Shown in pieces: positions 18,740-20,963 of a stretch of 64,000 nt of DNA. The notes under the pieces are model-generated. The model made no database searches. It was not told the DNA's origin and worked only from the letters and a program-made list of their open reading frames with translations. The DNA lies in assembly GCF_016595235.1 (NCBI RefSeq), contig NZ_JAENHL010000008.1:1200624-1264623 (forward strand). The letters are read 5' to 3'. Source of the DNA: Taklimakanibacter albus (GTDB lineage: Bacteria; Pseudomonadota; Alphaproteobacteria; Rhizobiales; Aestuariivirgaceae). A program made the translations under genes and the position numbers. The number at the start of each line of letters is the position of its first letter. The first letter of the stretch is position 1.

Positions 18740-18790
18740 CGATCAGATGAAGACGGCTTGGCGGGCCGAAGTATTTTTCCGGGACGGCGT

Positions 18791-19888
18791 ATGGACCACG
18801 ATAGACTGATCGACCGCATCTACGAAGCTGCGATTGTTCCCGACCTCTGGGACCGCATTCTCCAGGACGTATCGGAGATGGCCGGGTGTTTCGGGGCGGT
18901 CTTCAGCACGACGGCAAGCACCGACAATGTCGGGCGCTGGATCAGCTCGCCGGCGCTGCGCGACCTCATGGAGGATTTCGCGCGCGACAGCGAGCTGCAG
19001 GCCAATAATCTGTGGCTCCAGCGCGCCATGGCGGCGAAACATCACGGTTTTGTGGGCAATGACAAGCTCTACGGCGCCGAAGAGCTGGAACGCAATCTGT
19101 CCTATTCGAAGTTCTTCTATCCGCGCGGTCTGGGCTACTGCGCCGGCACCGTCATTCCCATGCCCAATGGCGATATCGCCGTCTTCAATCTCGAACGGCG
19201 CTATACTGACGGGCCGGTTCCCGACGACAAGATCGCCGCCTTGGACGGCATTCGCCCGCATCTCGGCCGTGCCGCCGTCATCGCCACCCGTCTCAATCTC
19301 GAAAGAGCGAATTCCGTGGTCGAGGCGCTCGGAACCTCCGGGCTGGCGGCCGCGGTGCTGGCAAAGAGCGGGCGGGTGATCGCCGCCAATGACCGGTTGG
19401 AGGGGCTCTCCGAGCAGTTCATGATCCTCGCGCATGACAAGATCGCGGCCGCGGATCGTCGGGCGAATACGCTTCTCGGCACGGCGCTCGAGCAGATTTC
19501 CTCGGCCGCGACGACGCGGTCGATCCCTATTCCCGCCAGTCCCGGATCACCCTCGGCGGTCGCCCATATCCTGCCTTTGCCCGGTGAGGCGGCCGACATC
19601 TTCTTTTGCGCCCAGGCCCTCCTGGTGGTGACGCAGCTCGACCGTCCGAGCGCGCCGGCGGCGGAGCTGCTCGGCGGGCTCTTCGACCTGACCCCCACCG
19701 AAGCGCGGGTCGCCCGATGCATCGCCGAAGGCAAAAGCACGGAAGAAACGGCCAGCGCCCTCAAGCTCACACGCGAAACGGTGCGCTGGTATCTCAAGGC
19801 GATTTTCGCGAAAACCGGCGTCAGCCGCCAGGCCGAGCTCAGCGCGCTCCTCGCCGGAGCCGTTCTCCATGGCGGCAAGCGGTCATAG
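18791..19888 (+). CDS. LuxR-type helix-turn-helix regulator
   Basis: A 365-residue regulator. The C-terminal GerE/LuxR domain occupies about 295-355 (LTPTEARVARCIAEGKSTEE, then LKLTRETVRWYLKAIFAKTG), with the recognition helix in ETVRWYLKAIFAKTG. The N-terminal ~280 residues are not an autoinducer-binding or receiver domain that I recognise; this large-N-terminus class is common in Hyphomicrobiales. The ATG at 18791 has a weak ribosome site; a TTG at 18758 is possible. It is divergent from the small exported proteins, and shared dyads suggest that they are its targets. Confidence 0.82.
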   Translation: MDHDRLIDRIYEAAIVPDLWDRILQDVSEMAGCFGAVFSTTASTDNVGRWISSPALRDLMEDFARDSELQANNLWLQRAMAAKHHGFVGNDKLYGAEELERNLSYSKFFYPRGLGYCAGTVIPMPNGDIAVFNLERRYTDGPVPDDKIAALDGIRPHLGRAAVIATRLNLERANSVVEALGTSGLAAAVLAKSGRVIAANDRLEGLSEQFMILAHDKIAAADRRANTLLGTALEQISSAATTRSIPIPASPGSPSAVAHILPLPGEAADIFFCAQALLVVTQLDRPSAPAAELLGGLFDLTPTEARVARCIAEGKSTEETASALKLTRETVRWYLKAIFAKTGVSRQAELSALLAGAVLHGGKRS

Positions 19889-20004
19889 CTTCAGCCCTCC
19901 GCCGTCGCCTTAAAACGATCACTTCGAAGCGCGGCAAACGATCAATTTATATCGGACGGCCGATTTAACCACCCGTACAGATACTGTCATATACAACGTC
20001 GTAG

Positions 20005-20130
20005 ATGCCTTAGAGCTAATTCCGCCAAAGTTGCAGACTTTGGCGATAAGAATTCGCTCCAAGATATTGATTTGGCGCGAATCCTTATCGGCGAAGCGAT
20101 TCCGCTTCGCCGGGATGCGCGCTAAGGCAT
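20005..20130. ncRNA. Cloverleaf-folding intergenic element
   Basis: A 126-base stretch with four nested stems. The outer stem pairs 20005-20016 with 20119-20130 (11 of 12 pairs). Inside it are hairpin 1 (20023-20031 with 20037-20045, nine perfect pairs), hairpin 2 (20045-20057 with 20077-20089, twelve of thirteen pairs, plus CCAA/TTGG in the loop) and hairpin 3 (20090-20098 with 20103-20111, nine perfect pairs, tetraloop ATTC). The arms adjoin with almost no spacers, giving a four-way junction in RNA or single-stranded DNA. It is not a tRNA. It ends 44 bases before the start of a binding-protein gene and is AT-richer than its surroundings. It may be a structured leader, a small RNA or a mobile palindromic element. 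Confidence 0.6.
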
Positions 20131-20174
20131 GTCGGACGGCGCCCGATTCTATCCAAGCCCTTCTGGAGTTGACG

Positions 20175-20963
20175 ATGCATAAAATGTTCAAAGCACTTGT
20201 TCTGGCGGCCGGCCTAACGGCGCTGCAGACGGGTCTCGCACATGCCGATCTGAAGATTGGTTTTGCGGCTGAACCTTTTCCGCCCTTCAGTTCGAAGGAC
20301 GCTTCCGGCCAGTGGGTAGGCTGGGAAGTCGATGCGATCGACGCCGTATGCAAGGCGATGAACGAAAAATGCGATTATGTCGAAGTGGCCTGGGACGGCA
20401 TCATCCCGGCGCTGCAGTCGAACACGATCGACGTCATCTGGAGCGCCATGTCGATCACGCCCAAGCGCCGGGCAGTCATCGATTTCTCCGATCCCTATTA
20501 CCGCACCACTTTGTTCGTCGTCGGTCCCAAGAATGGCGATCTCGACGTCACGCCGGCGCATCTCGCCGATAAGACGATCGGCGTCCAGGGCACAACCGTC
20601 TCGGCCAAACATGCCGAGGATGACTATGCGCCGGCCGGCGCCACGATCAAAACCTATGCCACCCAGGATGAGGCCAATCAGGACCTCGCTTCCGGACGCA
20701 TCGACTACACGATCGGCAGCGCCGCGGTGATGAAGGGCTTCCTCGAAACCGACGGCGGCAAGGGCTGCTGCGAATACAAGGCCAGCGTCACCGATGCGAA
20801 GGTCCTGGGCGAAGGCATCGGCGCCGGCATCCGCAAGGGCGACGCGGCTCTCAAGGCCAAGCTCGACGCCGCCATCAAGGACGTGGCGAAGTCCGGCGAG
20901 TTCGACCGCATCACCGCCAAGTATCCCGAGCTCAAGGACGCCATCACCACACCCAAGCCCTGA
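20175..20963 (+). CDS. Amino-acid ABC transporter substrate-binding protein
   Basis: A 262-residue periplasmic protein of the SBP_bac_3 (cluster 3) family. The signal peptide is KALVLAAGLTALQTGLAHAD, and the mature part starts with DLKIGFAAEPFPPFSS. The family-typical GWEVDAIDAVCKAM, a conserved Arg in MSITPKRRAVIDFSDPYY and LASGRIDYTIG are visible; these bind the alpha-amino/carboxyl of amino acids. The ATG at 20175 has GGAG seven bases before it. No permease or ATPase is adjacent, so it is an orphan component. A hairpin terminator follows 20 bases downstream. Confidence 0.88.
   Translation: MHKMFKALVLAAGLTALQTGLAHADLKIGFAAEPFPPFSSKDASGQWVGWEVDAIDAVCKAMNEKCDYVEVAWDGIIPALQSNTIDVIWSAMSITPKRRAVIDFSDPYYRTTLFVVGPKNGDLDVTPAHLADKTIGVQGTTVSAKHAEDDYAPAGATIKTYATQDEANQDLASGRIDYTIGSAAVMKGFLETDGGKGCCEYKASVTDAKVLGEGIGAGIRKGDAALKAKLDAAIKDVAKSGEFDRITAKYPELKDAITTPKP

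Follow-up and report, generated by a model that had tools for sequence, protein, structure and literature searches.

A mobile two-hairpin intergenic repeat of Taklimakanibacter albus and its probable link to IS630-type transposition

The element at positions 20005-20130 of the window (the whole stretch of 64,000 nucleotides analysed here) is a mobile intergenic two-hairpin repeat of a known sort, found so far in one genus and a few relatives of the same family. A sequence-only reading had proposed a leader that senses an amino acid, a free small RNA or a non-autonomous mobile element, and the last of these is borne out by dispersed copies, by sites that are empty in related genomes and by the variety of the neighbouring genes, so that we are nearly sure of its mobility. 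The element has the architecture of the CIR class, with GAGC/GCGC ends placed against TA, and is probably a non-autonomous (MITE-like) repeat of the IS630/Tc1-mariner type. The interest lies in this link of CIR-like anatomy with IS630 ends, which can be tested directly: movement of the repeat becomes a plasmid transposition assay.

Extent and neighbourhood of the element

The window comes from the genome of T. albus (G000, 7.17 Mb in 9 contigs), and G001-G004 are congeneric genomes. The features of the region, in window coordinates, are as follows.

18758-19888, plus strand: upstream neighbour, a LuxR-type regulator with a GerE domain (PF00196); start codon as predicted by the ORF tool
20005-20009: ATGCC flank outside the element, found in the empty sites of G001 and G003
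20011-20012: left target TA (context TTAG), with TA duplication suggested by the empty sites
20013-20122, plus strand: body of the mobile repeat, type 1 (110 bp); the full-length match to other copies stops about here, and the body is missing at the orthologous site in G001 and G003
20013-20059, plus strand: hairpin A, with outer arms 20013-20022/20050-20059, inner arms 20023-20031/20037-20045 and a 4-nt bulge at 20046-20049; supported by helices 1 and 2 of the covariation analysis (20 copies) and by the DNA fold
20060-20074, plus strand: linker joining hairpins A and B; from alignment A1 and structure scoring
20075-20122, plus strand: hairpin B, a reverse-complement relative of A, with outer arms 20075-20084/20113-20122, inner arms 20089-20098/20103-20112 and a 4-nt bulge at 20085-20088; from covariation (helices 3 and 4) and minus-strand self-BLAST
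20079-20083, plus strand: GAATC, the stem GANTC site of hairpin B; 18 of the 20 copies have GANTC here
20098-20102, plus strand: GATTC, a second GANTC site, at the hairpin B loop; found in 11 of the 20 copies
20123-20124: right target TA (context CTAA), with TA duplication suggested by the empty sites
20126-20130: GGCAT flank outside the element, found in the empty sites of G001 and G003
20175-20963, plus strand: downstream neighbour, a family 3 solute-binding protein (PF00497); the predicted start is ATG

The two hairpins are related to each other in inverted orientation, as BLAST of the element against its own minus strand gives 69% identity over 127 nt. The intergenic gap has a GC content of 52% against 63% for the window, in agreement with the AT-richer island between genes that had been noticed in the sequence. 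The site of the element in both G001 and G003 reads atgccTTAAAggcat, with the element missing and the gene of the solute-binding protein kept, and therefore the ATGCC/GGCAT arms are older than the insertion. The outermost pairs, which had been taken for a part of the element's stem, are target DNA. A 12-nt direct repeat, ATATCGGACGGC/ATGTCGGACGGC, flanks the element at window positions 19949-19960 and 20129-20140; it was considered as a target duplication and rejected, because its right copy is already present in the empty sites.

The location of the element, about 50 bp 5' of the start codon of the solute-binding protein, together with its strong folding, would suit a structured leader or attenuator that acts in cis on this amino-acid-binding protein gene. 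However, the same gene is preceded by no element in G001 and G003, other copies adjoin other genes, both strands fold equally well and there is no Rfam match at the gathering score, which leaves this explanation with a negligible probability. We are nearly sure that the element is not the leader of the binding-protein gene, and only an effect gained after insertion remains to be considered. The equal folding of both strands and the scatter among varied genes give no sign of a free small RNA either.

Conserved pairing and the preferred fold

The predicted RNA of positions 20005-20130 has a minimum free energy (MFE) of -69.2 kcal/mol (z -8.4) and that of the opposite strand -69.3 (z -8.9). The inverted repeats are thus real and beyond chance, as none of 200 dinucleotide shuffles was as stable on either strand. 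A scan of the window against Rfam at the gathering score returned 0 matches. The reverse-complement kinship of the two hairpins allows crosswise pairing of their arms as well, which gives an alternative cloverleaf fold. Such a four-stem cloverleaf had been described from the window alone, and it is a genuine minimum-energy RNA fold; across copies, however, it is kept less well than the two hairpins (82.9% against 94.9% of cells paired). The element without its flanks has the two-hairpin form as its MFE structure under DNA energies (z -7.6, 0 of 200 shuffles as stable).

The comparison of the two folds was made on alignment A1, which comprises the 20 full-length type-1 copies and was scored against both structures. 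Under the two-hairpin fold, for which slid controls reach 29-47% of paired cells, two-sided changes occur in 11 of 38 pairs (16 cells), and none of 500 shuffles, in which the kinship of the copies is ignored, scores as high on any measure. The paired fraction of the cloverleaf was equalled in 7 of 500 shuffles, and stem by stem it is 63.8% for the outer and 83.7% for the central one; its two-sided changes are found in 11 of 49 pairs (0 of 500 shuffles as high, kinship again ignored) and 12 cells (8 of 500). The two inner stems are common to both folds and account for 6 of the 11 two-sided pairs and for 6 of the cells, while the stems specific to each fold contribute 5 of 19 pairs (10 cells) in the two-hairpin form and 5 of 30 (6 cells) in the cloverleaf. 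The two hairpins are favoured by the pairing percentage and by the cells; the pair count does not separate the two folds. A second type of copies, described below, gives a similar picture, with 97.9% of cells paired and two-sided changes in 10 of 45 pairs (n = 18; 0 of 500 shuffles as high, kinship ignored); this set comprises 18 of 19 copies picked by length and orientation among 40 places, with L176 excluded.

The pairing is thus maintained by compensatory changes, which affect 11 pairs under either fold among the 20 copies. Covariation in repeat copies need not imply a function of the RNA; hairpin-templated repair can rewrite one arm of a hairpin from its partner. More generally, strong folding of intergenic DNA should not be taken as evidence for a riboswitch.

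The outer stem of hairpin B includes one unpaired position (window 20080/20117, columns 73 and 111 of A1), which is kept in 19 of the 20 copies and is A-G in 17 of them. Its left base creates the GAATC site, and the sole copy that is paired at this position (L011) lacks that site.

Copies, types and distribution

In its own genome, the element has at least 44 matches by BLAST, where 40 of 108 candidates were scored, and at least 128 by a covariance model of the 20 full-length copies, where 150 of 4861 were scored; many of those found by the model are a single place seen on both strands. The latter collapse to at least 84 distinct places, at least 67 of them of 95 bp or more. Besides type 1, there is a type 2 of about 122 bp with the same layout, in which a hairpin A of the same kind is combined with a different hairpin B. 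Copies with mixed hairpins and copies with a single hairpin are also present in this genome. Another palindromic repeat (GAGCATCGG or GCGCGTGATC..., with CCGAAAA/CGGTTTTCGG arms) is found in or beside related sites (L137, L134, L024, L180) and is apparently a third module family. The 128-bp two-hairpin copy L086 of the T. albus genome has as its counterpart at the orthologous site of the relative a 46-bp remnant with both ends in common (L194), an apparent internal deletion.

Among 60 genomes, DNA matches were found in 9, the own genome included: in all 5 of the genus, in 4 of 31 from the rest of the family and in 0 of 24 from other families. A core pattern with 27 fixed bases retrieved 73 stretches from a collection of 84,980 species, which may omit the own genome; all of them come from Taklimakanibacter lacteus, 'Rhizobiales bacterium Y(2018)' and one alphaproteobacterial metagenome-assembled genome (MAG). 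No match to the element was found in plasmid and phage records.

According to heuristic ORF calls, no ORF contains any of the 20 full-length copies, and at five of them (L001, L005, L007, L008 and L015) the earliest possible start of a neighbouring gene extends 51-94 nt into the element. The 20 copies adjoin differing genes, the varied neighbourhood that had been named as the mark of a mobile or RNA family, with the neighbours in tandem at 13 copies, divergent at 5 and convergent at 2. In the same heuristic ORF calls, the terminal TA(G) of the element coincides with the stop codon of an adjoining open frame at six junctions in L002, L008, L009, L017 and L019.

GANTC sites are frequent in the repeat: there are 1.5 per type-1 copy, compared to 0.56 in shuffles and 0.17 in 114 bp of flanking DNA, and in hairpin B the site is found in the stem in 18 and at the loop in 11 of the 20 copies. 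This enrichment, the recurrence of the stem site and the covariation could mean that the repeats are kept after insertion for a job in the host, such as the provision of methylation sites (GANTC, for CcrM) or of hairpins that shape transcripts, an explanation compatible with movement by IS630. However, 10 of 14 compared sites are empty in a relative and the loop GANTC is found in barely more than half of the copies, and we regard retention for such a job as improbable.

Empty sites and target

The sites of 14 of the 20 full-length copies were sought by their flanks in three congeneric genomes, those in G001 being mostly 91-98% identical, and the 10 sites just mentioned lack the element in some relative. 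G001 has 13 of the sites, four of them occupied (L003, L009, L012, L018) and nine empty; the fourteenth, L002, is empty in G003. The pre-insertion site predicted from duplication of TA was matched exactly in the cleanest cases, L006 (TTAG, in two genomes) and L013 (TTAT), and was one base off at the site in the window (TTAAA), at L002 (CTGA) and at L008 (CTAG in G002; G001 and G003 differ more). A clean TA insertion did not fit the other five of the ten empty sites, as three bases too many are present at L005 and L007, and L004, L016 and L019 are ambiguous. At L013 the TA is bordered by different bases at either end (TTAG...CTAT), so the duplication comprises TA at most. The terminal TA is intact on the left in 11 and on the right in 15 of the 20 type-1 copies, and an intact TA is preceded by a pyrimidine in 10 of the 11 and followed by a purine in 12 of the 15.

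A second comparison of sites was biased towards occupied ones, as many of the loci had been chosen for holding the repeat. There, seven sites were occupied in a relative (L011, L015, L176, L180, L192, L199, L211), L010 was occupied in one relative and missing in another, L026, L030 and L175 were empty, L029, L190 and L194 were ambiguous or partly deleted, and no site had a clean TA reading. We are fairly sure that the element inserts using TA.

The duplication of TA is formally indistinguishable from a TA carried by the element, and this would suit an element of the REP/BIME type moved by a single-copy HUH tyrosine transposase (RAYT), which would insert beside a short tag with no true target duplication. 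The inverted pair of bulged hairpins is indeed BIME-like, and a Y1_Tnp gene of 232-235 aa is present in each of G001-G004, with two matches in G004. However, among the 36 genomes searched for Y1_Tnp (PF01797), the own genome has no match at E<=0.001, and neither does G009, in which elements are present. The Y1 loci that were read, one in each of G001-G004 (L162, L164, L165 and L166; the second match of G004, below the cut-off, was left out), carry a different repeat (TTTCGGTGACAGTGCA..., TTTCGGTGACAGTGCATTYAAT...); BLAST of these four loci revealed no copy of hairpin A or B, only a single 15-nt match with E 0.33, and no GTAG or CGTC tag was seen. Movement by a RAYT is therefore unlikely.

Candidate transposases

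Insertion into TA or YTAR could also be due to a transposase of the IS5 family (IS427/IS711-type), like the insertions at the Brucella Bru-RS repeats. IS711 is an IS5-type element. For IS711, one article reports YTAR targets with duplication of TA (PMC2266754), and TA alone does not single out IS630 because IS711 duplicates TA in YTAR too. PF01609 matches are present in 7 of the 8 relatives searched. On the other hand, neither PF01609 (DDE_Tnp_1) nor PF13586 (DDE_Tnp_1_2) has a match in the own genome at E<=0.001, the five PF01609 loci read (L227, L229, L230, L231, L232) have TAG[AC]GC only scattered and no end resembling those of the element, and one of the PF01609 insertion sequences, compared in its two copies in G003, has ends unrelated to the element's. 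We consider the IS5 family a poor candidate.

The ends of the element, TA followed by GAGCNNNTCCCG, resemble those of IS630 transposons of Alphaproteobacteria. Read against TA where it is intact, they are GAGCAAATCCCG and GCGCGCATCCCG for type 1 and GAGCGCTTCCCG and GAGCCCTTCCCG for type 2. G003 has seven matches to DDE_3 (PF13358, IS630), six of which are near-identical copies of an IS of about 1055 bp that ends with GAGCATTTTCAT and GAGCGTTTTCGT, each next to TA, and that has CTAG as a target in five cases and TTAG in one. Two further IS630 types with GAGC next to TA at their ends are found in G030, and the ends of plasmid-borne IS630 elements read GAGCATTTTCCG/GAGCGTTTTCCG in Bradyrhizobium barranii and GAGCATCTTCCG/GAGCATTTTCCT in Polymorphobacter. 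Twelve alphaproteobacterial types were examined, and TA followed by GAGC is found in all five with both ends resolved, a match to the element that is short. Three of these five also have T[TC]C at positions 8-10, while the other two share only GAGC, so the likeness between the element and IS630 ends is confined to the 4 outermost bases and T[TC]C(CG) at positions 8-12. Types with fewer than two resolved ends are L217, L219, L225, L239, L240 and L243, and L242, which has its right end only.

Two of the six IS630 copies in G003 abut the terminal TA of an element exactly, L215 next to a copy 97% identical to the type-1 reference and L220 next to a type-2 copy. Such an adjacency in two of six copies could result from the preference for CTAG alone: given a density of about 390 CTAG per Mb, and assuming 150-200 ends of elements, we estimate p at ~0.04-0.06. 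For ISY100, one article demonstrates IS630-family transposition into TA with duplication of TA, and a title cited there ascribes a preference for CTAG to an IS630-associated transposon (PMC2170065).

No DDE_3 (PF13358) match at E<=0.001 was found in G000, G001, G002 or G004, in spite of the differences in insertions that separate G000 from G001; movement by IS630 would thus require that the transposase was lost again. No internally deleted IS630 copy that would bridge the IS and the repeat was seen. In a search of the own genome for an autonomous parent, TAGAGCNNNTCCCG had 47 matches, compared to 30 for a reversed-pattern control, most of them places already found by the covariance model; of the six atypical matches that were read, five are lone or decayed copies of hairpin A and the sixth (L170) is chance-like, with no second end within 200 bases.

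We think it probable that IS630-type transposition moves the element. An IS630-family transposase, acting in trans, would recognize ends of the form GAGCNNNTYC, excise the element and paste it into YTAR, with CTAG favoured. The transposase would not be retained by the genome and would instead come and go with the IS. The palindromic arms may be kept either as something needed by the transposase or the host, or as a result of hairpin-templated repair, by which one arm would be rewritten from the other.

Comparison with known systems

Among titles and the openings of abstracts, we found no paper that describes the element or ties the two-arm repeats of Alphaproteobacteria to IS630; the name of the genus appears there in two lists of names. 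A broader proposal may be put forward, which we regard as tentative and on balance doubtful: that the alphaproteobacterial two-arm palindromic repeats (CIR, RIME and their kin) are, as a class, passengers of the IS630 type, spread by transient transposases via GAGC ends next to TA, in which the hairpins would be interchangeable modules whose palindromy is preserved as one arm templates the rewriting of the other, and GANTC would tie their movement or effect to the methylation state of the cell cycle.

The element resembles the BIME/REPIN elements associated with RAYT in its inverted pair of imperfect, bulged hairpins. It differs from them in that its genome has no RAYT match, no REP tag was seen and TA is duplicated. 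The RIME1/RIME2 repeats of rhizobia are reportedly 108 bp long, with two large palindromes, and form an intergenic mosaic, an anatomy like that of the element. Their description (Osteras 1995) is cited in PMC2573895. In Sinorhizobium meliloti, positions 1-50000 of the 1683333 of pSymB contain no hairpin of the element's kind with TA followed by GAGC, and thus no support for a link to RIME there. The IS that visits the Bru-RS repeats of Brucella is of the IS5 type, unlike the IS630 copies found at elements in G003. According to two articles, Bru-RS1/2 are palindromic intergenic repeats of 103-118 bp, into which IS711 inserts at YTAR with duplication of TA (PMC2267715, PMC2266754); by this description, they are similar to the element in length, palindromy and intergenic location, and in being visited by an IS.

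The RUP element of Streptococcus pneumoniae is thought to be moved by IS630-Spn1, and it resembles the repeat described here in its length of 107 bp, its intergenic location, its roughly 110 copies, its TA target and its IS630-like ends (PMC3049150, PMC2229807). However, RUP is AT-rich and its terminal repeats pair mutually, whereas our element comprises two separate hairpins that are exchangeable modules, and no resident IS630 was found in the T. albus genome.

By anatomy alone, the likeness is to the CcrM ('CerM')-associated intergenic repeats, or CIR, of Caulobacter, Brucella and other Alphaproteobacteria (Chen and Shapiro 2003, as cited in PMC2229807). That review describes them as about 110 bp long, with two long stem-loops and a linker, a terminal TA and GANTC at or in the terminal loop, and as absent from genes; it marks their target duplication with a question mark and states that the mechanism of mobility needs more information (PMC2229807). 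The element shares with this description the length of about 110 bp, the intergenic location, the two stem-loops with a linker, the terminal TA and the GANTC at the loop. It differs in that its GANTC is found in the stem as well as at the loop, and in that its empty sites point to TA. For one CIR-like case, there are thus filled and empty sites that point to duplication of TA, ends that are IS630-like, and copies of IS630 located at the ends of the element.
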